Shown here: positions 12,801 through 55,226 of the stretch, piece by piece
How positions within the stretch are numbered: position 1 is the first letter of the stretch
Layout of the letters: the number at the start of each line of letters is the position of its first letter
NCBI GenBank assembly: GCA_029213065.1
Contig: JARGPH010000003.1
Coordinates: 195,195-259,194, forward strand
From: Verrucomicrobiales bacterium
GTDB lineage: Bacteria; Verrucomicrobiota; Verrucomicrobiia; Verrucomicrobiales; DEV007
DNA length: 64,000 nucleotides
Reading direction: 5' to 3'
Notes under the pieces: model-generated
Databases searched by the model: none
Seen by the model: only the letters and a program-made list of their open reading frames with translations
What the model was told of the DNA's origin: nothing
Position numbers and translations under genes: made by a program

Positions 12801-13194
12801 TTTCATCCATGGAGACGAGCTCGCCTTCGATTCGGTCCTGGTTAATGAGTTGAACCCGGAAAGACGAGGCGTCCACGAAGTCTTTCTCGCGGTTCGTCGA
12901 TGAGAAGCGAATCCCTCTGAGCTGTGCTTTTTTCAGCTTGAGAGGGCCGGCAAACGGTTCCGCCCGCCAGTTGATCGTTCCATCGTTGCTTTCGTTAATC
13001 GCTCCCTTGAGTTCATCTCCGTTTCGCCATTGCAGCCAGGCCGGTTTCGATTTGGCTACTGACTCTGCAGGGGGCGATTGCGCGTCGGTGCCGGCGGGGG
13101 AGAGGCAAAAGAACGCGAGAAGAGCACAGAGATTTCCCCGCGCTACCTTCCGGTTCGTCGCGAAACATTTCAATGCCTGTGAGATCAAAATCAT
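9892..13194 (-). CDS. large exported protein with repeated beta units and a C-terminal thioredoxin domain
   Basis: 1100 residues with an N-terminal signal peptide (about 1-38). The body contains at least four related short beta modules of the pattern 'V.L.ngd.l.G.L.s...d.i.f.......i....i..I', for example around FRVQLINQDRIEGELVS, RVFLRNDEILTGDLVSL and HVLIAPNGDLLRGKLIAA, interleaved with jelly-roll-like stretches. The C-terminal 130 residues are a TlpA/ResA-type thioredoxin domain with WCGPC at about residues 985-989 and the cis-Pro segment KGIPHTVV. It probably acts outside the cytoplasm as a redox protein joined to a structural array. Last gene of the four-gene envelope operon (6 bases after the 13201 gene). 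Confidence 0.75.
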   Translation of the reverse strand: MILISQALKCFATNRKVARGNLCALLAFFCLSPAGTDAQSPPAESVAKSKPAWLQWRNGDELKGAINESNDGTINWRAEPFAGPLKLKKAQLRGIRFSSTNREKDFVDASSFRVQLINQDRIEGELVSMDENAVRLRSPHFPEPVTIQRKSIERIVNLGNRQFRLSDPGELSDWTSSGRDRKSTEWFTDLKGEFSTHQWSGNLFRPIELPQKVELSFRAVIPDGKPNLEIGFLREPGRGPQLETWGDQLVLTCRSQFTPVMELGKEMTVIEFRLFWNQETGDVQVCEPSGRKIAELAEATAARPDSGRGNKNPLERGFYILNRTPEMRLAMLTVREWDGENVPVMDLTKPRIEFQDSASSSSVRQTLLAEGATDFSIGGKKVPVDEVREIVLNPESETPESDAASGTRIAWFSGPTVSGELLAINGEKLTLKPGWSADPVATKLIDAREIRFPPSTEAIDFGTDLLTGNGFSLRGVTRTADGNRYPQSLIAWEAPGAIGATPLADTVEATIERSKFPADRTQPPASIGRARVFLRNDEILTGDLVSLDKETIHFNSSITGPLEIPATDVRAIDIGTAGRVLEGFNDTEWEELEEDPNDVTMRNDSTLFKNGGFGNPSILLGDRLYFDAHWKRSSGSMTLKFFTSSAEASGNEVVILAQGNRLFVGKTKPGGAFSFSNNQTEIENNRASIQITANSVQIEIRVDGKLAFTHAVDPESISGNGLYFKMGGGWQGFNQSGSEIELTNFRIEQTAGSIPLRIIDKKSKENTLTVPRSLRDDLPTHVLIAPNGDLLRGKLIAAVGDTIQFEANAEMIDFPRKRISAIVWLTEPEATAIAGGPPQEEAEPVDEKLLNPFEPSEYEKLKQFNFKVTHQIVMKDGSRLQIRSDRIEDGKYVGHSAILGRCRLPISNVHSMTRSAPTPIHKAAKLDLVVFDDWDLTLTPDPVIPTGEEAPASPLIGTKAPAIELTMLDESRFSLKEQKGKIVVLDFWATWCGPCIKAMPDVKKAISAFPAEAVTFCAINQAESPPIINGFLKNRKWEDTPVALDFTMKVSNAYQVKGIPHTVVIDPEGEIAWIHSGYSETLKEELFEAIAAILQKQAQR

Positions 13195-19272: not shown

Positions 19273-20340
19273 ATGGCGAAAAAGGTAGCGAGAATTGAGG
19301 TCACCGACGAGCGATTCGGGACCGTGGATGAGATCATTGATGTTCGCTCCCCCGGGGAATTCGCGGAGGATCACATCACCGGGGCGGTAAACCTTCCGGT
19401 GCTTCAGGATTGCGAGCGACAGATTGTCGGGACTGCCTACAAACAGGAGTCCTCTTTCGAAGCACGAAAACTGGGTGCCTCGCTGGTTTCAGCCAACATC
19501 GGTCGACATCTCGCTGAGCATTTTGCGGACAAGCCGAAAGATTATGCTCCACTCGTCTATTGTTGGCGCGGTGGACAGCGATCCGGAAGCTTCGGGCTTG
19601 TCCTTTCCAGTATCGGTTGGGATGTTTCCGTGCTTGAGGGCGGCTATCGAACTTACCGGCGCCATGTCATCGAAACGATTGAACGCGTATCGCCAACTCT
19701 GAAATTAGTGGTTCTGAACGGCTACACCGGAGCCGGTAAAACGCTCCTGTTGAAGCAACTCGAGAAGGACGGGGCGCAGGTGCTCGATCTCGAGGGATTG
19801 GCCTGTCACAAAGGCTCTGTCTTCGGAGGTGATCCTGAGAACCCTCAGCCCGCTCAGAAGCGTTTCGAATCGCTGCTCTTTGACCGGTTGAGAAACTTCG
19901 ATGCGGGGGATCCGGTCTTCATCGAGGCGGAGAGCGCCAAGGTAGGACGTCTCAATCTGCCGAATCCCCTGTGGCAGAGAATGAAGGTTTCACCGGTGAT
20001 TGAGATTGATTCTCCGCTCGCCGCCCGGGCCGCCTATCTGAAAGCCGATTATGAAGAATGGCTCGAAGATCTCGATCGCATTCATGTCACGCTGGATCGC
20101 CTCAAGAGTTTTCACTCTAAAAAGCAGCTTCAGCGCTGGCGGGATCTGGCGGAGGAGGGGAGTTGGCACGATTTTGTGGCGGAGCTGCTCGCTGAACACT
20201 ACGACAGGCGATACACGGTCGGTGGCTCGGGGCATTTTGAAAAGCCATCGACCAGAGTTCCGCTTCCCTCTCATTCAACGGAGGAAGTCAGCCGGGGGGC
20301 TGAGGAGCTGGTCTTGAAAGCCAAAAATTTCTATACCTGA
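19273..20340 (+). CDS. mnmH: tRNA 2-selenouridine synthase (SelU/MnmH)
   Basis: Uses selenophosphate to convert 2-thiouridine at the wobble position (U34) of certain tRNAs (Lys, Glu, Gln) to 2-selenouridine, through a geranylated intermediate. 355 residues, normal length. The N-terminal rhodanese domain (about 1-130) has its active-site Cys at residue 97 in YCWRGGQRSG, the same position as the essential Cys of the E. coli enzyme. The C-terminal P-loop domain has GYTGAGKT (about 150-160) and the family's DLEGLACHKGSVFG motif. The gene depends on SelD, encoded at 49.6 kb. It is followed after 66 bases by sodN on the same strand. Confidence 0.96.
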   Translation: MAKKVARIEVTDERFGTVDEIIDVRSPGEFAEDHITGAVNLPVLQDCERQIVGTAYKQESSFEARKLGASLVSANIGRHLAEHFADKPKDYAPLVYCWRGGQRSGSFGLVLSSIGWDVSVLEGGYRTYRRHVIETIERVSPTLKLVVLNGYTGAGKTLLLKQLEKDGAQVLDLEGLACHKGSVFGGDPENPQPAQKRFESLLFDRLRNFDAGDPVFIEAESAKVGRLNLPNPLWQRMKVSPVIEIDSPLAARAAYLKADYEEWLEDLDRIHVTLDRLKSFHSKKQLQRWRDLAEEGSWHDFVAELLAEHYDRRYTVGGSGHFEKPSTRVPLPSHSTEEVSRGAEELVLKAKNFYT

Positions 20341-20406
20341 CAGCTACCACAATGGCGCCACCCGATTGACGTGGCGGAAGTGGGATTTGAATCGTATTAG
20401 TCACCA

Positions 20407-20877
20407 ATGAAAGCAAAACTGTTCTTCTCAATTCTTCTTGTAACCTTCCTCGCAACTTCGTTTTCCCAAAAAGCGATGGCTCACTGTCAGGTTCCCTGCG
20501 GAATTTTCGCTGATCAGCTTCGCTTCGAAGCGATGCTGGAAGATCAGACCACTATCGCCAAGGCCAATGGGCAAATGGCTGAACTGCTTAAAGAGAGCAC
20601 TCCGCTTGCCGCGAACCAGGCAACACGCTGGATCCTGACAAAAGAAGATCACTGCAGCAAAATCATGGAAACGGTGGCTGAGTATTTCATGGCTCAGCGA
20701 ATCAAGCCGGATGCCGAAAACTACGAGAAAACTCTGGTCGCGGCGCACAACGTGATGCGTGCCGCCATGAAAGCGAAGCAGGATCCTTCAGCTGAAGTTG
20801 CCGAAGCCCTCAAAACTTCTATTCTTGAACTCTATGAGTCCTACGAAGGCAAAGCGTTCCAGCCTCACACGCACTGA
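20407..20877 (+). CDS. sodN: nickel superoxide dismutase with a Sec signal peptide
   Basis: 156 residues. Ni-SOD dismutates superoxide using a nickel ion held by the N-terminal hook H-C-x-x-P-C-G-x-Y of the mature chain. Here the motif is HCQVPCGIF, starting at residue 26 right after MKAKLFFSILLVTFLATSFS-QKAMA. This is a typical signal peptide with an AxA-type cleavage site (A-M-A before His26). Cleavage by signal peptidase would expose His1 directly, removing the need for the SodX-type protease that trims cytoplasmic Ni-SODs; no sodX is nearby. The position-9 Tyr is replaced by Phe. The rest of the four-helix bundle is recognisable (KEDHCSKIMETVAEYF, AHNVMRAAMKAKQ). A terminator follows. Confidence 0.93.
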   Translation: MKAKLFFSILLVTFLATSFSQKAMAHCQVPCGIFADQLRFEAMLEDQTTIAKANGQMAELLKESTPLAANQATRWILTKEDHCSKIMETVAEYFMAQRIKPDAENYEKTLVAAHNVMRAAMKAKQDPSAEVAEALKTSILELYESYEGKAFQPHTH

Positions 20878-20902
20878 TAGTCCCCGATTTTTCTTTTCGA
20901 GA

Positions 20903-20934
20903 AGCGCGGCCGGTGAACCCGGGCGCGCTTTTTT
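20903..20934 (+). terminator. intrinsic terminator of sodN
   Basis: Inverted repeat AGCGCG...CGCGCT followed directly by a T-run (seven including the arm end), 25 bases after the sodN stop. Confidence 0.85.
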
Positions 20935-21060
20935 GTTGGCTGGTTTTGGTTGAAGGGGTAGTGGAATAAAGAAGGATAGAAGCAAAGAATCTTCCACCTA
21001 CCTGAAAACCTTCCTACTTTCCTACTTTTCCACCTTCCTACCGCGCGAAGCGCCCCGGTT

Positions 21061-22203
21061 ATGATCTACCTCGATTCCAACGCCACCACTCAGGTTCACC
21101 CGCGGGTGATCGAAGCGATGATGCCTTTTCTTACAGGCCATTGGCACAATCCTTCCAGTGGATACCGCGCCGGACGCGAGGTGAAAATGGCAGTCGAGCG
21201 AGCCCGCGAACAGATCGCCGACTGGATCGGAGCGAAGCCTGCCGAAATCGTCTTCACGGGTTGTGGAACCGAGTCTAACAATATGGCGATCAAGGCGCTT
21301 GCCCGCGAGATCGGTCGCAAGCATTCCAAAGTCCTCGTCAGTGCGATCGAGCACAGCGCTGTCCTTCGTCCCACCGATGCGATGGCGGCAGTGGGGTTTG
21401 AGGTTGAGAAAGTGGGTGTCGATTCGGATGGTCGTCTCGATCTCGATGGCTTCGCTGACGCGCTCAACCCGGAGTGTCCCGGGTTCGCCTCCATCATGTG
21501 GGCAAACAACGAAACCGGCGTTGTTCAGCCGATTGTCGAGGCCTCCCAACTCGCGAAGGAGGCGGGGTGGTTTTTCCATACAGACGCGATTCAGGCGGTC
21601 GGGAAAGTGCCTGTTCGGGTGGATGAAGTCCCCGTCGACTACCTGTCTATCAGTGGACACAAATTTCACGCCCCCAAAGGAGTCGGGGCACTCTACATTC
21701 GGGAAGGCGCTCCGTTCGAACCGATGACCCGGGGTGGAGGACAGGAAGGAGGGCGTCGCAGCGGCACTGAGAATGTCCCTTACATTGTCGGACTCGGCGA
21801 AGCTGCCGCGCTCATGCAGGAGGAAGCCCGAAACGGAGGTCTTGCCCGCGTCGAAGCTTTGAGAGACAGACTCGAAAACGCCCTTCAAACAGGGTTGAAT
21901 GAGACACCTGACAGGGTTGAATGCAACGGTTCCCGCGAGCACCGCACCGGCAACGTCGCCCACGTTTCGATCAAAGGTAAAGTCGCCTCTGAGCTGCTAC
22001 CCAAACTCGATGCCGCCGGAATCCAGTGCTCCGCCGGCAGCGCCTGCATGACCGGGAAAAATCAGCCCAGTCACGTTCAGAAAGCGATGGGCTACAGCGA
22101 CGAGCGCGCCTTCAGCAGCCTGCGCATAAGTCTCTCGATCATGACGACCGAAGCCGAAGTCGACGAAGCTGTGAGGCGAATCATCGATGTGGTTAAAGGA
22201 TAG
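21061..22203 (+). CDS. cysteine desulfurase, NifS/IscS class I type
   Basis: PLP enzyme that removes sulfur from cysteine (and selenium from selenocysteine) to form a persulfide (perselenide) on its active-site Cys. 380 residues. The PLP lysine is Lys201 in SISGHKFHAPKGVGALYI, and the active-site Cys is residue 329 in CSAGSACMTG. The full-length loop around that Cys places it in class I. A group of these enzymes supplies selenium to SelD. The position between selU/sodN and the selenocysteine tRNA suggests, but does not prove, that role; no iscU or other Fe-S assembly gene is adjacent. Start MIYLDSNATTQVHP is the normal N-terminus. Confidence 0.92.
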   Translation: MIYLDSNATTQVHPRVIEAMMPFLTGHWHNPSSGYRAGREVKMAVERAREQIADWIGAKPAEIVFTGCGTESNNMAIKALAREIGRKHSKVLVSAIEHSAVLRPTDAMAAVGFEVEKVGVDSDGRLDLDGFADALNPECPGFASIMWANNETGVVQPIVEASQLAKEAGWFFHTDAIQAVGKVPVRVDEVPVDYLSISGHKFHAPKGVGALYIREGAPFEPMTRGGGQEGGRRSGTENVPYIVGLGEAAALMQEEARNGGLARVEALRDRLENALQTGLNETPDRVECNGSREHRTGNVAHVSIKGKVASELLPKLDAAGIQCSAGSACMTGKNQPSHVQKAMGYSDERAFSSLRISLSIMTTEAEVDEAVRRIIDVVKG

Positions 22204-22316
22204 GCGGTGAAAATGTGTTTCGACCTGATCCCTTTCCTCACCTTACCGCTAAATTTTTACATCACCGTGATTGACCGAACCCACCCGATGCAGGTAAGTT
22301 TGATCGATCCATAAAA

Positions 22317-22410
22317 GGAGAGAGATGAGCACCTGGTGGGCTCCGCGGTCTTCAAAACCGTTGTCGGCAAGTGATCCTTGCCGGGGTTGGTTCAATTCCT
22401 TCCCTCTCCG
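22317..22410 (+). tRNA. selC: selenocysteine tRNA (anticodon TCA)
   Basis: 94-base gene with the large-tRNA layout of tRNA-Sec: an 8-bp acceptor stem (GGAGAGAG against CCCTCTCC, one A-C mismatch), D-arm with a long stem, anticodon arm GCGGT-CTTCAAA-ACCGT with TCA at 22352-22354, and a long variable arm CGGCAAG-TGATC-CTTGCCG (7 perfect pairs). The T-loop is TTCAATT. Discriminator is G; CCA is not encoded (CTA follows). The T-stem can be drawn only with two T-T oppositions. It decodes UGA with SelB and is charged with serine, then converted by SelA. It lies about 27 kb from selD. Confidence 0.93.
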
Positions 22411-22519
22411 CTATTTATTTTTGCGTGGCGTTCCTGCGGTTCTATTTTTCGCTCCGGTGCGCATTCGCTTCGTTTGATCACGCCGTTGACCAATTGGGAA
22501 ATGTTGGGAAGGTGTCGGG

Positions 22520-25162
22520 GTGACGACTTTTTTTAATGTGATTCCCTGTCTCCTTGTTTCTACCGTTCTCCATTTGAGTGCAGTCGTGCATGCTGCCGGG
22601 CCTGAGACGGTTCCCTCGGCGGTGATGCCGGAGAAGCACTTTGCGGTGTTCGAAAAATACTGCCTCGATTGTCATGACTCGTTGACTGAGAAGGGGAAGG
22701 TGAACTTGGAGGAGTTGTCGTTTCAATTGGGTGATCTGGAGACTGCTGAACGATGGCAGAAAGTTCTCAATTCGCTGAACTCGGGCGAAATGCCGCCGGA
22801 GGATAAAAAGCAAATCAGCGATGAGGAGAAGGCGGCTTTTCTCGATGACCTTTCTCATCAACTCGTCACGGCACGCAAGGTTCTCAGTGATACCGGCGGG
22901 GCGATCACGATGCGACGGCTGAATCGCCGGGAATACAAAAACACAATTCGTGATTTATTAGGCGTTGAAGTCGATGTCGCCGATCTTCCGGATGATGCCG
23001 GTTCGGGAGGCTTTGACACTGCGGGTAGTTCCCTGTTTTTCTCAAGTGATCAATTGGAGCGTTATCTTACGCTCGGGCGTAAAGCTCTCGATTCGGCGTT
23101 GGTTGCGCTGCCGGTTCCGCCGAGACCGGAGACACGAAAGGTCCGGGTCGAGGCTGAGGAGGAAGCCAACAAGCGTATCACGGGGATTTTGCGGGGCTAC
23201 CACATGGGCGGGTATCGCAAATACATGATGTGGAAGGCCTCAAACGGGCGGCCTGCTTCGGATTTCGGGTTGGTCGACGATAAGGAAATGGAGTTTCGCA
23301 AGCTCGCCTGGGATCGCAATGCGCCGCAATACATCGATTACCTGACCCGACCGGAAACCAAAGACGGCGCCCTGATCACGATAGGGGGAAATCTCTGTCC
23401 GCAGGTGCCGGCGGTGATTCCGGATGAGATGCCGGCCGGCAATTACAAAGTGCGAGTCCGTATCGGGGCATTTCCGAAGATGCCGTCGGAACGCACTTTT
23501 GTTGAAATGGGCTATCGCGGTGACCGCATCGACGGGGCGATCGATTTGATCGCGACCCGGAAGGTGAATGGCACTGTCGCCAGGCCGGAGACGATTGAGT
23601 TCGACCTCGCTTTGCGGGCTCCGAAGAATCCTCTCAAGGAGGATGTCGGAACGGAAACGAAAAAGGTCGTCATGTTAGGTGACCGGGTGGTCGTCTTTCG
23701 TGAACGTCAGCCCAATGTGCGGGGATCGAATGTCTATCGGAATACGATGGCGCGGGAAGCGACCGGTTTTGGTCCCGATCCCGCACTTTGGATTGATTGG
23801 GTTGAATGGGAGGGGCCGATTTACGGCGACGACGAAAGTGCGTGGCCGCCGGAATCTCACAATGAGATTTTTTTCAAGGGGCCCGGAGTGGCCTTGGTCG
23901 ACGCTTATGCGCGGGAAATTCTGGAGCGATTTGCTGAGAAAGCGTTTCGGGGAAGGGCGTCTTCTCCTGCTTTCTTTGTTCGGCTCATGGCGCAGTATCG
24001 CGCCCGAATTGATCACGGAGAAGCGGCACACGAAGCGATCCGGGAACCGCTCGCGGTGATTCTGGCCTCACCCGCTTTTCTTTATCTCGCTGAGCCTGCG
24101 GGGGAAGGGAAACGACGGGAATTGAACGATCTTGAGATGGCGGTCCGGCTCTCCTATTTCCTCTGGAGCTCTCCTCCGGATGAAGAGCTTTACCGGCTTG
24201 CCCGTGAGGGAGTGCTGAAACGTCCCGCTGTTCTCGCAAAACAAACCGCGCGATTGCTGAAAGATCCACGGTCATGGGAGTTTGTGAGTGGGTTCACCCA
24301 TCAGTGGCTCGGAATGGATCGGCTCGACTTTTTCCAATACAACTACCGTCTCTATCCTGAATTTGATGACAGTGTGAAAACGGCCGCTCGAGAGGAGGTT
24401 TATCATACGATTGATCAGCTCATTCGCGAGAACCGTTCCATTGGGGAGTTGCTGAAATCGGATACGGTGGTGATCAATGATGTCCTCGCTGACTTTTATG
24501 ATATCCCGGGGGTGAAAGGGGAGCAGTTCAGGCGGGTCAAGGTGCCGAAAGATCTGCCTCGTGGAGGTTTGTTAGGGACTGTTGCAGTTCTAGCGATGGG
24601 GTCGGACGGGGAACGCTCCTCTCCGGTGGAGCGTGGTGCCTGGGTGATGCGTCACTTGTTACATGATGCTCCGCCGCCTGCCCCGGCGAATGTGCCTCAG
24701 CTGAGCCGTCATGCCGGCAAGCTGTTGCCGGCGCGGGAGCTTCTGCTCGCTCACATGGAGGAGGCGCAGTGCGCGCAGTGTCATCGCAAGATTGATCCGA
24801 TTGGATACGGATTTGAGAATTTCACGGCGGCGGGGCAATGGCGGGAGATGGAGTATACCGAGATTGCAGCGAATAACCGCGTCAGAGAATCGAAGGAGCA
24901 CCCAATCGATGCGAGTGGGACGATGCCGGACGGAACCGCGTTTACCGGGTTCTACGAACTCCGCGATCAGATTGCAAAAAGGGAGGATGCCTTTGCCCGC
25001 GGGTTTGCCGAGGCTCTTATCGCCTACGGGCTGGGACGACCTTTTGGATTTTCGGATTACGATCTCGCTGATGAGATTCTCGCTAAAGCGGAATCCAAAC
25101 AGAATCGCATGAGCCAGTTTATTCATGCTCTGGTTCAGTCGAAGCCTTTTAAGACGAAGTAA
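22520..25162 (+). CDS. DUF1592-type protein with planctomycete cytochrome c domain
   Basis: 880 residues with signal peptide. A haem-binding CxxCH (C48-C51-H52, CLDCH) opens the planctomycete-type cytochrome domain, and a second CAQCH (C751 to H755) lies in the C-terminal part. Domain order follows the DUF1587 / DUF1592 / DUF1588 / DUF1585 architecture (motifs MRRLNRREYKNTIRDLLG, LSYFLWSSPPDEEL, GGLLGTVAVLAM, DPIGYGFENFTAAGQWR). A carbohydrate-binding-like insert is present around 210-430. Such proteins are abundant in Verrucomicrobia and Planctomycetes and are thought to act in electron transfer linked to polymer breakdown, but the reaction is not established. Paired with the DUF1552 gene 18 bases downstream. 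Confidence 0.88.
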   Translation: MTTFFNVIPCLLVSTVLHLSAVVHAAGPETVPSAVMPEKHFAVFEKYCLDCHDSLTEKGKVNLEELSFQLGDLETAERWQKVLNSLNSGEMPPEDKKQISDEEKAAFLDDLSHQLVTARKVLSDTGGAITMRRLNRREYKNTIRDLLGVEVDVADLPDDAGSGGFDTAGSSLFFSSDQLERYLTLGRKALDSALVALPVPPRPETRKVRVEAEEEANKRITGILRGYHMGGYRKYMMWKASNGRPASDFGLVDDKEMEFRKLAWDRNAPQYIDYLTRPETKDGALITIGGNLCPQVPAVIPDEMPAGNYKVRVRIGAFPKMPSERTFVEMGYRGDRIDGAIDLIATRKVNGTVARPETIEFDLALRAPKNPLKEDVGTETKKVVMLGDRVVVFRERQPNVRGSNVYRNTMAREATGFGPDPALWIDWVEWEGPIYGDDESAWPPESHNEIFFKGPGVALVDAYAREILERFAEKAFRGRASSPAFFVRLMAQYRARIDHGEAAHEAIREPLAVILASPAFLYLAEPAGEGKRRELNDLEMAVRLSYFLWSSPPDEELYRLAREGVLKRPAVLAKQTARLLKDPRSWEFVSGFTHQWLGMDRLDFFQYNYRLYPEFDDSVKTAAREEVYHTIDQLIRENRSIGELLKSDTVVINDVLADFYDIPGVKGEQFRRVKVPKDLPRGGLLGTVAVLAMGSDGERSSPVERGAWVMRHLLHDAPPPAPANVPQLSRHAGKLLPARELLLAHMEEAQCAQCHRKIDPIGYGFENFTAAGQWREMEYTEIAANNRVRESKEHPIDASGTMPDGTAFTGFYELRDQIAKREDAFARGFAEALIAYGLGRPFGFSDYDLADEILAKAESKQNRMSQFIHALVQSKPFKTK

Positions 25163-25180
25163 ACTTTAGTTAAAACGAAG

Positions 25181-26494
25181 ATGAGTTCAGATCCTTTTCA
25201 CCCTTCGACGAGACGGAACTTCCTGCGTGGCGGGACGACATTGCTCGCCCTGCCGTTTCTGGAGTCATTCGGATTTCGACGTTTTGCCTCTGCGGCTGAG
25301 AAGGAGGCGGCTCCGCCGAAGCGGCTCGCCTTTATCGGAATGGGATTCGGGGTGACCCGAGAGACATGGTTTCCTGACACCGCCACTACGGGGACGGATT
25401 ACGAGCTTCCGGACGGGCTCAAACCGCTCCAGCGCCACAAGGATGACATCACCGTGATTCAGAATCTCTCGAATCAGTTCAGTAATGAAGCCCATTGGGG
25501 CAGCACTTTCTGGCTGACGGGGGCGAATCGCTACGCGGAACCCGGACAGAGCTTTCACAATTCGATTTCAGCGGATCAGGTTGCCGCCGAGGTGCTGGGA
25601 AAAGAAACGCGATTTACCTCAATTCAGTTGGGGTCGGAAACGGCTGACACTTCCGGTCACGGGCCGGGCTTGTCGCTCGCGTGGAATCGGCAGGGGAAGC
25701 CGGTTGCCGGGCTCGACAACCCGACCCTCGCGTTTCACCGGCTTTTCTCTGACGAAACGATGCCACTCGAGCAACGGCAGTTGCTGCTTCAGCAAAAGCG
25801 CTCTGTGCTCGATTCCGTGATGGAGAATGCGAAGTCGGTCGGTAGAGGGCTCAATTCCGCAGATACCGATAAGCTCGACGAGTATTTTCAGTCGGTCCGC
25901 GAGATCGAGACACGGCTTTCCAAAGAGGAGCAGTGGCTCGGTGTTTCGAAAGTCCAGCCCGCCGATCCGGTCGAAGAGCCCCGGGAAGGTCTTGCCGGAG
26001 CTGAGGAGATCAAGCTGATGTATGATCTCATGATCGCTGCGATGCAGGTCGATGCCTCGCGTGTTTTCACCTACCGCCAGCCGGTCACGAGTTTGCTCCA
26101 GAGTCTCGGGGCGACGATTTCCGCTCACAACATGAGCCATTACCAGCCGGGGATGCGGATGGAGGCCTCGCAAAAGCGCGACCGGAAAAATTCGGAGCTG
26201 CTGGCTTATTTCATTGATAAGCTCAAAACCTCGAAAGAGGCGGATGGTTCAAGTTTGTATGATCATACCACCTTGAGTTTCGGCAGTAACATTAATTCGA
26301 TTCACTACCTGACCAATTGTCCTACCTTGATTACCGGTGGTGGCGCGGGGGTGAAGCATGGCCGTCATCTTGTTCTCGAAGATACCAAAACGCCCCTCAG
26401 TAACTTGTGGTTAACGTTGCTTCAGGGAACGGGGATCGAGGTGGATTCGCACGGCGACAGCACCGGCGTGCTCGGTGAGCTGTTCACTGTGTGA
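25181..26494 (+). CDS. DUF1552 family exported protein
   Basis: 437 residues with a twin-arginine signal (STRRNFLRGGTTLLALPFLESF), so it is probably exported folded. DUF1552 belongs to the alkaline-phosphatase/sulfatase-like DUF1501 neighbourhood, and these proteins are nearly always encoded beside DUF1592 cytochromes, as here. Typical segments are present: LAFIGMGFGV, TFWLTGANRYAE, DKLDEYFQSVREIETRL and GGGAGVKHGRHL. The partner reaction is unknown. An 18-base gap to the upstream gene suggests one operon. Confidence 0.88.
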   Translation: MSSDPFHPSTRRNFLRGGTTLLALPFLESFGFRRFASAAEKEAAPPKRLAFIGMGFGVTRETWFPDTATTGTDYELPDGLKPLQRHKDDITVIQNLSNQFSNEAHWGSTFWLTGANRYAEPGQSFHNSISADQVAAEVLGKETRFTSIQLGSETADTSGHGPGLSLAWNRQGKPVAGLDNPTLAFHRLFSDETMPLEQRQLLLQQKRSVLDSVMENAKSVGRGLNSADTDKLDEYFQSVREIETRLSKEEQWLGVSKVQPADPVEEPREGLAGAEEIKLMYDLMIAAMQVDASRVFTYRQPVTSLLQSLGATISAHNMSHYQPGMRMEASQKRDRKNSELLAYFIDKLKTSKEADGSSLYDHTTLSFGSNINSIHYLTNCPTLITGGGAGVKHGRHLVLEDTKTPLSNLWLTLLQGTGIEVDSHGDSTGVLGELFTV

Positions 26495-28705: not shown

Positions 28706-31700
28706 ATGGCTGTTTTCAGTAGAAGTCTTTTTCTGGCGCTGGTAGGTTTTACCGCGCTTTCCGGATGCGGAAAGAAGGAGGACAACGCGGCTGTCGAAAA
28801 CGGCGATCAGTCTGAACTCGCGGCAGAGCCGGCTCTCATTCCCGGGGAGAAATCTTTCGAGTCGTGGCAAGAGTTTGACGACGCAAAGGCTGACGGTTGG
28901 GAGTCCGAGGTTTTCAATGATCAGGCCTCGGGCGTTCTGAAAAAGTTGGATAAGGCGCTGCAGGAGGCGTCATCCGTCCAAAATTTGGGTATCTTTGGTG
29001 AAGGTTCGTTTGTCACGAGAACGCCCGAGACGGACCCTTCTGTTGCGACCATTCAAGTTGCGGGTGGCTATGTGATTCAACGGTGGCAGATGCTGACAGG
29101 ATCCGGAATTAGATCGGAGGGGGCTGAGGCCGTATTGGCAACTCTGCGTGAGATATTCTACCCGCCCGGTCATCGTGGGGCGCGGACGAAGTTCAAAATT
29201 GTGTCGGTAGAGCAGGGGGAGGACGGTCACGTTTCCACGGGGCTTCGTGTCGAAGCGTTCGCTAAACTCGCGAAGGAGGCTGTCGAGCAGGTTTCCCACT
29301 GGAGGATCGATTGGGTGGTTACGGAAGAGGATCAGGGGAATCCCTTAATTGTCTCCATCACCGTTCTTGATACGGAAAAGACGACTCGTCCTCATTCGGA
29401 TCGGCTCTTTTTCTCGGACTGCACGCGCACCGCTCTGGAGGCAGATCCCGGTTATCGCACTCAGGTTCTGCGGGGGCTTCCCTACTGGCTGGAGCGTCAG
29501 AATCGACGAAGAGCGACGGATGTTTACGGTTTTCCAGGCATCGCCGTCGGGGATGTAAACGGCGACGGGTTGGAGGATCTTTTCGTGTGCGAAAGTCAGG
29601 GCGTTCCCCATTGCCTTTATGTTCAGAATCCTGACGGAACACTGAGTAACCGGGCGGCAGAGTGGGGAGTCGACTGGCTCGACGATGCGCGGAGCGCCTT
29701 ACTGGTGGACTTGGATAACGATGGAGATGAGGATCTTGTTGTTGCGGCGATCGGCTTTGTTCTCGTTTCGTCAAACGAAGGGGGACGGTTTGAATTGAAG
29801 GCGACCCTGTCGTGTAGCGAGGATGTGACTCATCTCTCCGCTGCCGACTACGACCTCGATGGCCGCGTCGACCTTTATGTATCCGCTTATTTGAAGTCAC
29901 AAATTGAGAAGCCTACTCCCTTCCACAATCCCGGATATTATATCGATTCGGAGGGTGGTGCCGGGAATGACCTTTTTCGGAATGAGTCACTTAGCGGAGC
30001 GAGCTGGAAGTTTACCAAGGTGACGGAAGAGACAGGACTCGACGCTGAAAACCGCGGGCAGACCTTGAGCACCGCCTGGGAGGATTTTGACGGAGATGGT
30101 GATCTGGATCTGTATGTAGCGAATGACTTTGGAAGCAATCCTTTCTACCGGAATGATATCGCCTCCGACGGGAAGCGCTTCTTTGTTAACATCGCTGACG
30201 GCTCAGGGGTCAAAGATACCGCCTTTGGAATGTCTGCGACCTGGGGGGACTACAACAGGGATGGCGCTATGGATCTCTATGTCGCCAACATGTGGTCCTC
30301 GGCGGGGAAACGCGTTACGAGTCAGGAGGAATTCAAGCCTGAGATCGACGATGGGGAGCGATCTTTCTACCGGCACTTTGCGAGGGGGAACACCTTGCTC
30401 AAGAACCTTGATGGGGACGGATTTGAAGATGTCAGTGAGGATGCCGGAGTTGTCATGGGACGGTGGGCCTGGTCCTCTCCCTTTGTGGATATCAACAACG
30501 ACGGATGGGAGGATATGGTCGTTGCCAACGGATACATTACCGGCACGGGGCCGGGGGATTTGTGAAGCTTCTATTGGCGACAGGTCTTGTCGCATTCACC
30601 AGACGCTGAAAATAAGGATACGATCCCCACGTTTAATTCACGCAGTGATGAATTGAGCCGAATGATTCAGCAGGGGAGGTCGTGGAGCGGTCATGAACGA
30701 AACTGCGCTTTTCTGAATACAGGAGAAGCCGGCGTTTCCGGTCAATCGCGATTCGCGACGATTTCGGCAGTGACCGGGTTGGATTTCGACGATGATGCTC
30801 GAGGCATTGCTGTTCTCGATTGGGATCATGATGGCGATCTCGATCTCTGGATTCGCAATCGGAATGCCCCGAGTCTTCGTTTGATGAAGAACGAGGCAGG
30901 TCGTGAAGCGGGGAACTTTTTGCGTCTGCATCTTCGCGGTGACGGGGTGGGCTCCAACACCGACGCGATTGGTGCTCGCGTCGAAGTGATTCTTTCCAAT
31001 TCAGATCTTCCGATCGTGAGAAGCGTCCGGGCCGGTGACACGTTTCTCTCGCAATCTTCGAAAGTCCTCCATTTCGGACTGGGGACAGACTCGAATGCAA
31101 CGATTGAGAAGGTGTCGATACGCTGGCCTGATCGCGAGGGAACTCAGGTGGTTTTTGACACCGGTCTGGAACTCAATCATACGTATGAGATTGAGCAGGG
31201 GATGAAGCCGGTGCCGATTTCTGTGCGGAAAACGCCGGTTTTGGAACCGCTTCCGGTTGAGCTTCCCGTCGAGGAGAGCACCATTCGCGTCTTTGCGCAA
31301 AGTTACCTCCCGCTGTCGGGGCTGGGGTATCGGGACGTCACTGGTGATGAAATCATTTACGAGGCGAAGCCGGAGCACTGGACTCTCGTCAATCTTTGGG
31401 CCACGTGGTGCTCTCCCTGCCGAGCCGAACTTCAGTCGCTTACCGCGAGGGCCGATGAGCTGAAAGCCGCTAAGATTGAGGTGGTGGCACTCTCTGTGGA
31501 TTTGACGTCGGATTTTTCTCCTGAATCTCCGCTTGTCGCCGAAGCGACTGGAATTCTCGAAGACCTCCAGTTTCCGTTTTTATCCGGATTTGCCGGGGCT
31601 GAGATGGTTTCCGGTCTTCAGGCGATCAATGACAATCTTACCAGTCTCAATCGCGATCTGCCTGTTCCCTGCAGTTTTCTCGTGAGTCCTTCGAAACGGA

Positions 31701-32476
31701 TTGTTGCGATCTATAAGGGGCCTGTATCCGTCGATCAGATTCTGGAAGACGGAAAGAGCGAAGATGATACCCCGGGTGATCGACTCAAGAAGACGATGGC
31801 GATCGGAGGGACCCTTGTTCCGAGTCAGCGAGTCAGTGACGCGCGAACGGATTTGGAAGCCGCTCTTCAGTTCTCGATGGGAAGACAGATGTTTCCTATG
31901 TCATCTTTGGCTGGTGCCATGCACTTCTCCGAGGCTCTTCGTCTCAAACAGGATTTCATCGAGCCGAGGATCCATCTCGCTATTGCTCTTAATAAGATGA
32001 ATCAGCTCACGCCTGCGAGAGAGCAATTGGCAATTGTGCTTTCTTTAAACCCCGGCGATGAAGAAAAGAGTGCTGCGTATTATCAGCTTTCTGAGATTGC
32101 TTTGAAACAAGGCGCACTCGTTGAGGCAATGACTCAATTGGAGTCGACGATCCGATTTGATCCCGGTCATGCCTTTGCTTTGAATAATTTGGGATTCCTT
32201 TTGGCCAGTAGAAATCAGGTTGGTTCTGAAGCGTTCGAGCGAGCCCTTGGGATGGTCGAGCGTGCGGTTGAGAAATCGGAACAGAGGCAGCCGAATTTTC
32301 TGGATACGTTAGGTGGTATATACCAGAAAGCGGGACGTTATGAAAAGGCGATCACTGCCTTCGAAGCCGCTCTTACTATCGCAAGGGAGCAGAAGCAGGG
32401 GGATCTCGCTGCGAAGATTTCGCCAAAGCTTGCTGAATGTAGACGGCGACTTGATTCTTTCCCGGTGCCCAAATGA
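28706..32476 (+). CDS. FG-GAP/ASPIC-UnbV/thioredoxin/TPR lipoprotein; candidate selenoprotein (TGA at codon 620)
   Basis: 1256 residues if the TGA at 30563-30565 is read as selenocysteine; the two halves lie in the same frame. Domains: lipoprotein signal (lipobox Cys near residue 21), an N-terminal domain of about 250 residues, FG-GAP/VCBS calcium-binding repeats (about 275-750, with many DxDxDG motifs such as DVNGDGLEDL), an ASPIC/UnbV segment (about 745-830), a thioredoxin domain with WATWCSPC (Cys902, Cys905), and C-terminal TPR-like helices (about 1050-1250). The Sec lies between FG-GAP units in GTGPGDL-U-SFYWRQV. This linker is a normal part of CRTAC1-like proteins, so the reading frame clearly continues across the TGA. 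A strong SECIS-like hairpin follows. Probably a periplasm-facing surface protein; substrate unknown. Confidence 0.85.
30577..30593 (+). promoter_or_regulatory. bacterial SECIS-like hairpin after the TGA at 30563
   Basis: GCGACA-GGTCT-TGTCGC: six perfect base pairs with a GGUCU loop. The loop GGU is 18-20 bases after the UGA. In E. coli fdhF the SECIS apical loop is AGGUCU, with GGU 19-21 bases after UGA, so both the loop sequence and the spacing agree. This hairpin would recruit SelB (encoded at 57.8 kb) to insert selenocysteine. It lies within codons of a conserved segment (WRQVLS). Confidence 0.88.
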
Positions 32477-39977: not shown

Positions 39978-42473
39978 TCATCGAGACCGGAAAATGTCGC
40001 TGGTAAGCGATTCGACGACGAGGGTCCGGAAGCCGTAGTTGTCTTTCTTCACGGTGGCAAGAATGTCGTCGATGATATAGTCGTCGACGGGTTCCATGTG
40101 GCGCCCCGTTGAATAGCTGAGAATCTGCCTGATCAGATTCCGGGTAAAGACGTCCTTCCGGGTCTTTAAAAGGATCTGCTTGAACTCGTTGAACGCGGTG
40201 TACGTTTCGCCGGAAGGGAATTCCCCGGTCGAGTCGATCTTCGGTGCCGGAGCCTTGCTGTTGGGTTTCGGGTAGTTGGTGCGCCACTTTCCGACAGGAT
40301 CAAAGGTCTCGAGACTGAATCCGAGGGGATCGAATTTGCGATGGCATTCGGCGCAGGTTTTATCACTGCTGTGCTTCGCAAGGCGTTCGCGTATCGTTGT
40401 GGCACCGCGGACATCGCTGTCAATTGCCGGCACTTCGTCAGGCGGCGGGGGAGGGCTGATGCCGAGGATGTTTTCCGAGACCCAGACGCCGCGCGTTACC
40501 GGGGATGTCTCGACGCCGTTGGCGCTTACGGTGAGGACGCCGGCCATGCCAAGGAGGCCGCCGCGTTGACCGTTTCCTTTGAGGCTGACGCGCTGGAAAC
40601 CGTCCTTGAGGGTAAGTTTTTCGCGTTCGGGCAGGCCGTAGAGGGCCGCGAGTCTCTTATCGACAAAGGTGTAGTCGGAGTCAATGAAGTCGGTAACGGG
40701 GCCGTTGCTCTGAAGAAGGTGACGGAAAAAGAGCTGGGCTTCCTTTTTCATCGAATAGGGATGATTTTCCGAGTAGTAAAGGCGGTTCGTCTCGCGCGCC
40801 GGGGGCTGGTTCCCAAGATCTCGCAGGTTGAGCCAGCTCTCCAGAAAATCGACTGCAAATTGATTGATTCGCTTGTCTTTGAGAAGGCGATCGACCTGCT
40901 TTTTCAGTTCCTCCGGCTTGGTCAGATCACCGGATTTTGCCGCTGCATAGAGTGTTTTGTCAGGAGGGGATGACCACAGTGCGTAGGAGAGTCGGGAGGC
41001 GAGGTCGTAGGGGCCAAGTTCGGTTGCTTTCTCATCAGTCACCTCGGCGAGATAGAGAAATGAAGGAGAACAGAGAATCATCTTGATGGTGTCGAGTGCT
41101 GCCTGGCGGGGTGTCGCTTCTTCGGCGCGGCGTTTCTCAAACGTTTTGCGAATCAGAGTCCGGTCGACATCTGTGAGGGGACGTCGGAATGCCTTCTCGC
41201 CAAAGGCGTAGAGTTGATCGAGAGCAGATTTCTCCTGAAAACCGCTCTTCCCGAACACAGCGATTTCCTCGCGGCTTCCCTCCGGCTCGGGAAGGGGGCC
41301 GTTGATCTTGATTTCGCCGATTCGAATATGAGGAAGTGCCCCCTCTTTGAGGATGTGGGAGCGTGAGACTCCGGATGCTGCAATCTTCCCGGTGAACTCG
41401 TCTTTGTATTTCTTATTCACGTTCAGGACCGAGGCACGGCTTTCGTAGGGGCCATTCGGGAAAATAAAACGTGGGGTCTGCCCCGCCTCAAGCCACACCC
41501 TGAAGGTGAGCCATTTTGCCTCTTTGTCAGGCGCGATCGCTGTCGCGAGGATCGGCTCGATTGCCTGAGGGTAATGGATGTGACCTTTGGTGACATCACC
41601 GGGGACAACGGCGAGCTGAAACGGCTCGGAGAAATCGATTTTAAAGATCGAGGCGTCGTAGTGGGTGTCGCGATGCATTGCCTGGGCATGCGCTTTGATT
41701 TCATAGATTCCCGAGACAGGGACGCCTTCAAGAAAGTCCTCAATGTGACCGTATCCGCCTTGTCTCGTATCGGTGTTAGGCTGCTCGTAGAGACAGAGAT
41801 ATTCGAAGTTGAAGGCCGACTTATGAGAGCCGGTAAGTTCCTCATACTGGATGAAGTGATCTTTGAAGTGCCAGGACTTCGGCTCCAATTCCGGTTTGCC
41901 GAGCCTGGATTCGACGAGGGTGTGAGCGGATTGGAAATACTGATCGAGTAGAAATCCCGAAGTGATCAGTGAATTTCCAATCGTATCGAGATGGTGACTC
42001 GTTTTCTCTTTCGGGAAATCTGCGGTCAGTCCGAGGGTGTCGACACGGCGATCAAAAAGAGTCGCCAGAGTCTGCTCGTATTCGCGATTGGAGAGGCGTC
42101 GCATCACGGTGCGCGCTCCGGTGCTCTCGATTTTTCCGCGAGCTGAGGCTACTCCATCTCTAAGAGCACGAAGGACTGCGAGGCGCTCTTCATCGCCCGG
42201 TTGATCGGCCTCCTTCGGTGGCATCTCTTTGAGAGTGACCTGGTCGATGATCTCTTTTGCAGAAATCAGTTCGCCCTCTGTTTTGAGGGGGAGTGCAAAG
42301 CTTTCAAATTCGCGTTCTGCCTTTTGAATATCGACGTCATGGCATTCGAGGCAGTATTTACCGAGGAACTGCTGGATGACTTTGTCCTGCGCTGTGCCGG
42401 AAAGGCACAGAAGACAAAACGACAGCACGACTGCGACGGCACTTTGGGTGCGTCTGTAAGTTAACTCCACCAT
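39978..42473 (-). CDS. DUF1592-type protein with planctomycete cytochrome c domain (second copy)
   Basis: 831 residues with an N-terminal hydrophobic signal segment. CxxCH motifs are at Cys41-His45 (CLECH) and in CAECHRKFDPLGFSLETFD near residue 710. The architecture is the same DUF1587/DUF1592/DUF1588/DUF1585 order as the 22520 gene (MRRLSNREYEQTLATLF, LSYALWSSPPDKTLY, RGGLLGMAGVL). The ending IILSYSTGRHMEP-type segment (LSYSTGRHMEP) is typical of DUF1585. It is preceded on the reverse strand by the DUF1552 gene (8-base gap), so the gene order within this pair is the opposite of the first pair. Confidence 0.88.
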   Translation of the reverse strand: MVELTYRRTQSAVAVVLSFCLLCLSGTAQDKVIQQFLGKYCLECHDVDIQKAEREFESFALPLKTEGELISAKEIIDQVTLKEMPPKEADQPGDEERLAVLRALRDGVASARGKIESTGARTVMRRLSNREYEQTLATLFDRRVDTLGLTADFPKEKTSHHLDTIGNSLITSGFLLDQYFQSAHTLVESRLGKPELEPKSWHFKDHFIQYEELTGSHKSAFNFEYLCLYEQPNTDTRQGGYGHIEDFLEGVPVSGIYEIKAHAQAMHRDTHYDASIFKIDFSEPFQLAVVPGDVTKGHIHYPQAIEPILATAIAPDKEAKWLTFRVWLEAGQTPRFIFPNGPYESRASVLNVNKKYKDEFTGKIAASGVSRSHILKEGALPHIRIGEIKINGPLPEPEGSREEIAVFGKSGFQEKSALDQLYAFGEKAFRRPLTDVDRTLIRKTFEKRRAEEATPRQAALDTIKMILCSPSFLYLAEVTDEKATELGPYDLASRLSYALWSSPPDKTLYAAAKSGDLTKPEELKKQVDRLLKDKRINQFAVDFLESWLNLRDLGNQPPARETNRLYYSENHPYSMKKEAQLFFRHLLQSNGPVTDFIDSDYTFVDKRLAALYGLPEREKLTLKDGFQRVSLKGNGQRGGLLGMAGVLTVSANGVETSPVTRGVWVSENILGISPPPPPDEVPAIDSDVRGATTIRERLAKHSSDKTCAECHRKFDPLGFSLETFDPVGKWRTNYPKPNSKAPAPKIDSTGEFPSGETYTAFNEFKQILLKTRKDVFTRNLIRQILSYSTGRHMEPVDDYIIDDILATVKKDNYGFRTLVVESLTSDIFRSR

Positions 42474-42481
42474 GGGGGACG

Positions 42482-43765
42482 TTAGGAAAAGGTTCCAGTG
42501 CTGGGACCGAACGCTTCTGATTCGATTCCCATTTTCTGCGCGATATCGAGAAAGAGGTTCGAAAGAGGCACTTTGTTCGGTCCTGACGACGCGACTTTCT
42601 TGAACTCACCGTGCCGGTAGCCACCACCTGCGAGGATGATGGGGAGATCAGAGTTCTTGTGGGAAGAGGCATTACCCATTCCGCTGCCAAAGACAACCGA
42701 GGTTGAATCGAGAAGTGATTGATCACCATCCGATGTCCGCGAAAGGCGGGTCAGGAACTTCCCGAACTGAGAAATCTGATACTCCTCCAGTGTGATAAGG
42801 TGAGCGATCGCCTCGGGATCGTTTCCATGGTGGGAAAGCCCATGATAGGATTTTTTGATTCCGAGGTTCTGAGGGAGAAAGCTTCCTCCGATTTCAAGGG
42901 TGGCAACACGGGTTGAATCGGTCTGGAGCGCCAGGGCCATCAGTTCATAGAGCATTGGAAGGTCATCGACGGTATTGGCATCGGCCGGCTGGTCGAAGGG
43001 GGCATCGGGTTTCGGATGGCTCGTCCAGCGCTTTCTCAACTCGAGACGCTTCTCCACATCCCTGATTGAAGTGAAGTATTCGTCGAGTTTGTCTTTGTCC
43101 TCACTGTTGACCTGTTTCGAGAGACGGTTGGCATCTTCGAGGACGGTATCGAGGATGGAGGCTTGAATTTTGTTTTCTTCAATACGGCGGACTCTGCGTG
43201 CTTCCGAGTCATTGACAAAGAGCTTCTGGAAGAGCTCTGCAGGTCCGGTGATCGGGGGCACTCGAACGCCGGATTTTGTCCAGGCAATCTGGCACCCGCC
43301 GTGGATACCTCCTTCAGAACCAACGGTCAGTGACGGGAAACGCGTTTCGACACCCACTTCGTCAGCGATGTATTGATCGATCGTAACATTGCCATCAGGT
43401 CGGCTCTGAGCCTCGGAGTTCAAAACACCTGAAAGAAAGGAATGAACCGCAAAGTGGCCGCCTCTAACACCGTGGTCGAGACCGCGATACACCGTCATGT
43501 GCTCACGGTTCGCCTCAAGCGGTTTGAGCAGGGTGGTGGATTCGTAGTCTTTCCCGGTCGTTTCAGGGAAGAAATCTTTCTGCTGAAAGCCTAAAAGGTT
43601 TCCCACCGCGACAAAACGCTTTGCTCCGATACCGGCTCCTTTTGTCGCCTGAATGGCAGCGGTGCTGTCAGCTGTCTTCGCAAGCAGCGACGGCATTCCG
43701 GGCAGAGCAAGGGTTGCTCCGATAGATTTTAAGACGAAACGACGTCGATTCATGGGTGTGGCCAT
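42482..43765 (-). CDS. DUF1552 family exported protein (second copy)
   Basis: 427 residues with a twin-arginine signal (MNRRRFVLKSIGATLALPG). Family segments: AKRFVAVGNLLGFQ, FFPETTGKDYEST, DKLDEYFTSIRDVEKRLELRK and SVVFGSGMGNASSH. It is the partner of the DUF1592 gene immediately downstream. Diverged from the copy at 25181, so not a recent duplication. Confidence 0.88.
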   Translation of the reverse strand: MATPMNRRRFVLKSIGATLALPGMPSLLAKTADSTAAIQATKGAGIGAKRFVAVGNLLGFQQKDFFPETTGKDYESTTLLKPLEANREHMTVYRGLDHGVRGGHFAVHSFLSGVLNSEAQSRPDGNVTIDQYIADEVGVETRFPSLTVGSEGGIHGGCQIAWTKSGVRVPPITGPAELFQKLFVNDSEARRVRRIEENKIQASILDTVLEDANRLSKQVNSEDKDKLDEYFTSIRDVEKRLELRKRWTSHPKPDAPFDQPADANTVDDLPMLYELMALALQTDSTRVATLEIGGSFLPQNLGIKKSYHGLSHHGNDPEAIAHLITLEEYQISQFGKFLTRLSRTSDGDQSLLDSTSVVFGSGMGNASSHKNSDLPIILAGGGYRHGEFKKVASSGPNKVPLSNLFLDIAQKMGIESEAFGPSTGTFS

Positions 43766-54112: not shown

Positions 54113-54226
54113 AAGGCTTTGAGATTGCCAACGACTGAGTCACTCCCTGCCCAACCGGGTGGCGTTGATGCACTTCGGTCTGATCAAAATGATCAAACTC
54201 TTAACATATTACCATCTATTCCAACC

Positions 54227-55165: not shown

Positions 55166-55174
55166 TTTCTTTTT

Positions 55175-55224
55175 CAGCCCCGCTTCGGGAGATCATTTCC
55201 CGGGGCGACGGGCTGCTTTTTTTT
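55175..55224 (+). terminator. intrinsic terminator/attenuator between binding protein and ATPase genes
   Basis: Hairpin CAGCCC...GGGCTG with inner pairing (CCCCG.../CGGGG) followed by eight T. The T-run ends two bases before the ATG of the ATPase gene, leaving no room for a normal ribosome binding site outside the hairpin. It may lower expression of the ATPase/permeases relative to the binding protein, or act as a switch. Confidence 0.8.
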
Positions 55225-55226
55225 GC

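Follow-up and report, generated by a model that had tools for sequence, protein, structure and literature searches.

A predicted CRTAC1-like selenoprotein with a propeller-borne selenocysteine and a fused thioredoxin-fold domain

The gene at positions 28706 to 32476 (+ strand) of the window, that is, the whole stretch of 64,000 nucleotides analysed here, is predicted to encode an exported CRTAC1-like propeller containing selenocysteine (Sec), which would serve as a redox centre, with the CxxC motif of a fused TlpA/ResA-like domain recycling it, a reading to which we give a probability of about 0.75. That the gene product is a selenoprotein, as a sequence-only reading of this stretch had proposed, is very likely on comparative grounds, since the UGA is kept in homologous loci, a hairpin is tied to it, the Sec machinery is present and Cys is found in close relatives.

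With the internal TGA read as a residue, the open reading frame gives 1256 residues followed by a terminal TGA stop. The sequence-only reading had described two stretches in the same frame, split only by TGA, with a continuous segment across it, and this is confirmed by translation and by the domains and homologues that span the UGA. The sole internal TGA is codon 620 (30563 to 30565, +; context GTGPGDL-U-SFYWRQV), at which translation, alignment and a structure model (pLDDT 93.3, pTM 0.93, with Cys modelled in place of Sec) predict a Sec at the start of a helix. At the N-terminus, a signal peptide with a lipobox-like LSG-C21 (28706 to 28768, +) was recognised by eye, and the protein is probably a lipoprotein, an assignment made from the match of LSGC to the lipobox consensus. 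The FG-GAP/ASPIC-UnbV (CRTAC1-like) propeller core, of CRTAC1 fold, comprises residues 268-835 (29507 to 31210, +), scores 102.5 bits with PF13517 (FG-GAP; cut-off 26.9) and 52.6 bits with PF07593 (UnbV_ASPIC; cut-off 23.4), and runs unbroken through the site of codon 620.

The propeller is followed by a TlpA/ResA-like thioredoxin-fold domain (residues 863-1006; 31292 to 31723, +), which matches ResA and TlpA structures with an E-value of about 1e-8. Its CSPC motif (Cys902 and Cys905; 31409 to 31420, +) is seen in the sequence, the alignment and the model, and the earlier claim of a WCSPC thioredoxin domain is backed by domain search, model and structure match alike. The curated TlpA/ResA models score below their cut-offs (51.7 bits vs 230 and 31.9 vs 170), so the domain is to be regarded as a relative and not as a TlpA; fold-search rows were not taken as showing function. 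Both Cys of the CxxC are invariant in a 70-row alignment, whose rows were chosen mostly for having CxxC. The Sec itself lies in the propeller, 282 residues ahead of the first of these Cys, and domain searches also place a TPR region at residues 1073-1229 (31922 to 32392, +).

The find extends far beyond one gene. TGA occupies the position of codon 620 in 100 out of 154 aligned loci, the window copy included, a share that is not a prevalence because the set was assembled by ourselves, with the fetched TGA and non-TGA rows picked by hand; these counts leave out rows gapped at that codon and duplicates whose flanks are identical. A single TGA lies within the match in 99 of the 100 TGA loci, the remaining one (L180) having three, and as many as 9 Sec copies were found per genome. 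Cys is present at the site in 7 of the 154 loci and in 11 of the 109 database proteins covering it, among them P0002, P0004 and P0006, which also have WCxxC, so the homologues show the Sec/Cys pairs by which selenoproteins are recognised. A stricter statement, that the close group has no Cys in place of Sec, is true for the fetched loci only and was rejected, as Cys is present in database relatives. Where the sequence-only reading had looked for Cys or TGA at this position, it is right for these loci and proteins and wrong for most of the rows without Sec, which carry mostly Asp, Ser or Glu, and also Asn or His, in the 154 loci and the 109 proteins. Unrelated residues of this kind, which that reading had named as counting against it, are common; yet the full hairpin is missing from all non-TGA relatives in which it was sought, and CxxC is missing in 86 of 107 non-Sec members.

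In a wider set, CxxC was found in 82 and missing in 5 of the 87 Sec members that have a C-terminal extension, versus presence in 21 of 107 others; the database rows contribute no Sec members to this test because gene callers cut Sec proteins at the UGA. On the corresponding tree, a quick one with SH-aLRT support only, 10 supported independent pairs were distributed as 7.0 changing the same way, 0.0 the opposite way and 3.0 with no difference, with a median p of 0.016 (range 0.004-0.125). The same test on the fetched loci alone had 3-5 pairs and was not significant. Plain Fisher tests gave p values of 2e-12 for Sec versus CxxC and 4e-8 for a Cys near Sec, values which are inflated because the rows are related. 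A Cys within 8 residues of Sec was found in none of the 83 Sec members with CxxC versus 8 of the 15 without it (two truncated rows dropped), the other 7 lacking both. Among non-Sec members, the presence of Cys rather than another residue at the site was not significantly linked to CxxC (5 pairs, 1.5 same, 0.1 opposite). The Sec had been described as lying outside the WCSPC domain, and it does lie in the propeller, but as judged from these sequences it is not independent of that domain, since the pair changes jointly on the tree.

A mechanism can be proposed in which SelB would read the hairpin and insert Sec at the UGA, and the product would leave the cytoplasm as a lipoprotein. Its Sec, as the selenolate, may then attack an oxidised substrate, be it a peroxide, a disulfide or a sulfoxide, and the selenenyl form would be resolved through the thioredoxin CxxC, whereas in some short members the Cys beside Sec could serve as the resolving thiol. 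Such a Sec-CxxC relay within one chain seems likely from the joint changes of the two motifs. The alternative that survives best, although it appears unlikely, is that the protein is a selenoprotein in which Sec coordinates a metal or haem, or has a structural role, and does not cycle with CxxC. FG-GAP propellers of other proteins bind metal ions, many relatives without Sec have Asp, Glu, Asn or His at this position, which could be ligands, and a neighbouring open reading frame at locus L058 has multihaem cytochrome domains. However, the co-change of CxxC with Sec and the near Cys in over half of the Sec members devoid of CxxC fit thiol exchange better than a ligand role, and a redox-active Cys or Sec is often found where a helix starts.

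The predicted insertion of Sec is supported by a SECIS-like hairpin at 30577 to 30593 (+), GCGACA-GGUCU-UGUCGC, which has the perfect 6-bp stem, the GGUCU loop and the fdhF-like spacing (11 nt past the UGA) that had been reported for it. The folding energy of this single hairpin is unremarkable and not significant (z -0.78; 39 of 200 shuffles fold equally well or better); the support for it is comparative. The full 6/6 stem is present in 86 of the 100 TGA loci versus 5.5 expected from synonymous recoding or shuffling, and in none of the 28 relatives that have the W-R/Q/T/C/K motif but no TGA, for which 0.34 were expected; these are 28 of the 54 non-TGA rows, the 26 without this motif having been left out. 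Stem pair 4 varied among loci (GU 31, AU 30, CG 20, GC 3, UA 1, UG 1), and the occurrence of several pair types per stem position means that pairs are compensated across the TGA loci. Together, these sequences point to selection on a hairpin just downstream of the UGA, as in a SECIS-type element. The hairpin keeps one register (nt 15-31, with 11 nt between it and the UGA) in 78 of the 100 TGA loci, while the full stem is missing from its main place in 14, some of which have shifted hairpins. In a window-wide scan of 194 TGAs with open flanks, codon 620 was the only one reported, at a threshold of our own choosing under which the UGA of SelD was not reported. A search of the window at Rfam gathering scores matched tRNA-Sec alone and no SECIS family. 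The fdhF SECIS of E. coli, whose loop is likewise of the GGUC type, has a bulged U17. The family hairpins do not: all 86 full stems have a paired G at nt 17, which suggests that SelB of E. coli might not work with them. The nt 15-31 register, with its 11-nt spacing, is the one that PMC8659212 gives for the E. coli element.

The full Sec machinery that had been read from the window was located on the + strand. It comprises a tRNA-Sec gene at 22316 to 22411 (60.6 bits vs a gathering score of 47 for 22316-22410; a second search gave 22317-22411), SelD at 49626 to 50681, containing its own in-frame UGA at 49674-49676 (CAGUASK), SelA at 52712 to 54112 (PF03841, E 4e-123) and SelB at 57799 to 59751 (PF09107 and PF25461). 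With regard to other genomes, tRNA-Sec was found in 9 of 10 checked genomes with the TGA form, the exception being G052, which has three TGA-form loci and no tRNA-Sec at E 1e-9. In a Planctomycetota sample, in which the best 3 candidates per genome were scored and TGA forms were counted among the matches listed, tRNA-Sec was found in 67 of 72 TGA-form genomes (the other 5 having none at 1e-10) versus 161 of 320 others, some of which may hold the TGA form since the 72 were copied by hand from the rows listed. Of 8 genomes checked that had no TGA form listed, 5 also gave tRNA-Sec, as is expected if those genomes hold other selenoproteins.

The remaining alternatives concern how the UGA is read. 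It is improbable that it serves mainly as a selenium switch, giving a truncated propeller half when selenium is low and the complete protein when it is plentiful. The part before the UGA is long, and UGA recoding in E. coli is incomplete, at 30-40% according to PMC4513850, but truncation would split the propeller core inside one fold, and Cys relatives built in the same way lack a switch of this kind. Still less probable is that suppression or an altered genetic code lets the UGA specify a different amino acid, for example Trp or Gly: Gly is found at the site in 3 of the 109 database relatives and 1 of the 154 loci, but Trp is found in no row of either set, the hairpin accompanies the UGA, tRNA-Sec is enriched, and TGA, which ends 16 of the 29 domain-supported open reading frames of the window and is their commonest stop, is therefore the normal stop there. 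That same usage, and the short database proteins that terminate at ...DL directly before the UGA (9 of 9 inspected), would suit a true stop, with two products, a pseudogene or a sequencing error, a reading with hardly any probability left and rejected on conservation, as 100 loci of many different genomes share the TGA at this codon, dN/dS is below 1 on both sides of it in all of the pairs yielding a value (7 of 8), and database relatives without Sec are full-length across a site where the core is uninterrupted.

We know of no CRTAC1 with Sec or with a thioredoxin or TPR fusion, nor, to our knowledge, has any enzymatic chemistry been described for CRTAC1-type propellers. The closest known propellers are those of murine CRTAC1 (PDB 9etn) and of the bacterial FG-GAP/ASPIC-UnbV 'CRTAC1 family', although the alignment of the family profile to CRTAC1 leaves out the Sec segment. 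The C-terminal domain shares its fold and WCxxC with the extracytoplasmic thiol reductases TlpA, ResA and DsbE, but is fused behind a Sec-holding propeller and falls below the curated cut-offs. A list from 2026, covering 119 prokaryotic selenoprotein families, includes UGC-containing TlpA and Redoxin family selenoproteins (PMC13188914, Table 1), which likewise combine Sec with a TlpA- or redoxin-type domain; to judge from their motifs, their Sec seems to lie inside the thioredoxin-fold domain, unlike the Sec described here. The family was not found in that list, in NCBIfam 20.0 or in the literature searched, in agreement with the earlier view that it is undescribed as a selenoprotein.

The family appears to be widespread. 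Its Sec would sit in a repeat propeller, a fold in which it was not expected, and some individual genomes have several Sec copies. We lean towards a large and so far overlooked class of extracytoplasmic selenoenzymes, in which a propeller with a putative catalytic Sec at a helix start would have its own TlpA-type reductase. The class would occur in Planctomycetota and probably another phylum, would have expanded to up to nine Sec copies in one genome, and would have escaped notice because gene calling stops at the UGA. If this is true, a large number of the 'VCBS' or 'FG-GAP repeat' proteins recorded for these bacteria in public databases are cut off at the Sec codon. Furthermore, the repeated co-change of Sec and a CxxC some 280 residues apart offers a testable handle on the evolution of Sec and its resolving thiol.

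The gene neighbourhood, with 20 open reading frames called by a simple script from 13 of 20 fetched stretches, showed nothing shared and no consistent substrate clue. The neighbours included sulfatases (2), TPR proteins (2), a lectin-like protein, COX1 and others. Two Pirellulales loci have OmpH and GDSL/TPR genes in common.

The gene at 28706-32476 (+) translates as a single frame of 1256 residues; it ends at a TGA stop, and codon 620 is its only other in-frame TGA. The product matches Pfam models for FG-GAP repeats, UnbV_ASPIC, an AhpC-TSA/thioredoxin-type domain and TPRs, and a lipobox-like LSGC is seen by eye close to its N-terminus. Elsewhere in the window TGA is an ordinary stop, which ends 16 of the 29 domain-supported ORFs. 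A search of 56 related genomes returned close homologues crossing one in-frame TGA in genomes G034, G043 and G052, and weaker homologues, crossed by between one and three such codons, in G023, G041 and G045. In the aligned read-through frames the in-frame TGA falls in one alignment column, within the motif DL-U-S-x-x-W-R.

Wider searches covered 387 genomes of the same phylum and 392 genomes from the phylum to which a Pirellulales MAG belongs. Among 154 distinct loci with a residue at the Sec column, which were picked by us so that the shares do not represent prevalence, TGA was found in 100, Leu in 12, Cys in 7, Glu in 6, Pro in 5, Ala, Ile and Val in 4 each, Asp and Gln in 3 each, Asn in 2, and Phe, Gly, Arg and Ser in 1 each. 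The loci with Leu, Ile, Val or Pro are distant CRTAC1 rows. Taxon names are available for the TGA members from two MAGs of Pirellulales and one of Planctomycetota. Since the 248 Planctomycetota-sample genomes listed have none in common with the own-phylum searches, the TGA form likely occurs in a second phylum besides Planctomycetota. Single genomes can hold several copies: in the five of six genomes where all candidates were scored, G034 carries nine, G043 eight, G430 seven (including a contig-end fragment that has two TGAs), G580 four and G549 three, and G751 has at least five with 150 of its 469 candidates scored.

All six stem pairs of a SECIS-like hairpin, with the stem 11 nt past the UGA, are present in 86 of the 100 TGA loci, as opposed to the 5.5 predicted from 100 synonymous recodings per locus, and the mean folding energy of the 100 loci is -9.8 kcal/mol, compared with -5.1 kcal/mol in the recodings. 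The stem pairs show compensated variation, and most loops read GGUCN or CGUGN. Conversely, the full stem appears in none of 28 relatives that have the same W motif without the TGA (0.34 expected), and their folding energy is ordinary (-4.1 versus -3.5 kcal/mol). The hairpin occupies nt 15-31 in 78 of the 100 TGA loci and is one nt shorter in 8; the remaining 14 lack a full stem at the main place, several having shifted hairpins. The E. coli SECIS, in the available text of PMC8659212, has the same register (nt 15-31) and the same 11-nt spacing from the UGA, but the hairpins of the TGA loci are devoid of its bulged U17. Taken alone, the hairpin of the window gene is unexceptional.

The window itself contains tRNA-Sec, SelA, SelB and SelD, as well as MnmH, which scores above the NCBIfam cut-off. 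SelD (49626-50681, +) has its own in-frame UGA at 49674-49676 (SSCAGUASK). With this set of genes, UGA recoding in the host is to be expected on independent grounds. An ordinary ORF caller places the SelD start at 49782, which is too late. With regard to other genomes, tRNA-Sec was found in nine of ten checked TGA-form genomes and in five of eight others checked alongside. The miss is G052: three TGA-form genes were fetched from it (L011, L048 and L053), but at E 1e-9 it has no match to tRNA-Sec, which an assembly gap may explain. In the Planctomycetota sample, tRNA-Sec is present in 67 of the 72 genomes for which a TGA form is listed versus 161 of 320 others. The Fisher p of 8e-13 is a guide only, given the kinship among the genomes and the chance that TGA forms went unlisted in some of the 320. 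For the own-phylum sample, where scoring took in the top three candidates of each genome, G000 and G392 are the only genomes listed with the TGA form, and both have tRNA-Sec at 60 bits or more.

Of 120 database proteins listed for the propeller core, 109 cover the Sec site, with Asp in 29, Ser and Glu in 16 each, Ile and Cys in 11 each, Leu, Ala and Asn in 5 each, His in 4, Gly in 3, and Tyr, Gln, Arg and Met in 1 each. Three of the five best matches have Cys in the same motif. Two of the Cys proteins, P0006 and P0002, are named from Phycisphaerales and Polarisedimenticolia, respectively. Proteins not covering the site comprise two of about 2000 residues and nine short ones; all nine end at ...DL, right before the UGA, and thus the public records hold the protein halved. 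Selenium is in no name among the listed proteins, most of which are nameless. A small group of database proteins (P0030, P0034, P0035 and P0038) has His at the Sec site and keeps the CxxC of the thioredoxin-fold domain, which is hard to explain either by simple loss or by an exchange of Sec and Cys.

This CxxC was counted in a thioredoxin-like fold 230-365 residues downstream of Sec, a range set by us. Among fetched loci with a C-terminal extension, it is present in 83 of 88 Sec members and absent in 14 of 15 non-Sec relatives, which the thioredoxin-domain profile still matches (E 6e-28 to 9e-7). With database proteins added, CxxC was found in 82 of 87 Sec versus 21 of 107 non-Sec members. A quickly built tree of 219 rows, whose supported branches require no fewer than 13 switches in Sec label, gave 10 independent pairs differing in Sec; CxxC differed in the same direction in 7.0 of them, in the opposite direction in 0.0, and did not differ in 3.0 (sign test, median p 0.016, range 0.004-0.125). 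The fetched loci alone gave too few independent pairs for this test. Within non-Sec members, Cys as against other residues showed no link to CxxC (five pairs, not significant). A Cys within eight residues of Sec is found in none of the 83 Sec members with CxxC versus 8 of the 15 without it (uncorrected for kinship), at U+2 in five, U+5 in two and U-1 in one. Short loci without a thioredoxin domain include L179, L013 and L188 (DGUTCLW) and L012 and the second copy of L052 (DLUSCFW), with Cys at U+2, and L182 and L192 (USxFWC), with Cys at U+5; some members of the clade that has the Cys form (L056, L015 and L151) likewise have Cys at U+5. The pattern of CxxC or a near Cys is what would be predicted if Sec required a partner thiol, provided by the fused domain or by a residue next to Sec.

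The probable mechanism would involve SelB-dependent insertion of Sec and export of the protein, whose selenolate would attack an oxidised substrate and be regenerated by the TlpA-like domain. The genes around the family loci share nothing that points to the substrate.

A 2026 review that counts 119 families (PMC13188914, with its Table 1) lists nothing under FG-GAP, UnbV or CRTAC1; the few families it calls 'hypothetical protein' were compared through NCBIfam only. NCBIfam 20.0 has no selenoprotein model across the Sec site; its TsoB model matches the thioredoxin part weakly. No such selenoprotein is named in the available text of PMC12013277, PMC9312934, PMC2398784, PMC5029168, PMC5330540, PMC4807772 or PMC3909097, and the accessible open-licence literature combining FG-GAP and selenoprotein, supplementary tables aside (e.g. 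PMC4807772 S9), comprised only work that, judged by titles and the opening of abstracts, is unrelated.

MnmH (tRNA 2-selenouridine synthase), a Ni-superoxide dismutase, a NifS-like desulfurase and tRNA-Sec adjoin at 19273-22411 (+), which suggests a selenium-handling cluster. Between selA and selB lies a phosphonate-type ABC transporter (54119-57779, +; binding protein, ATPase and two permeases), which may take up a selenium compound. Two gene pairs encode DUF1592/PSD cytochrome-type and DUF1552 proteins (22520-26494, +; 39978-43765, -). The 1100-residue product of 9892-13194 (-), with a C-terminal redoxin/AhpC-TSA domain, is another large protein with a terminal thioredoxin fold.
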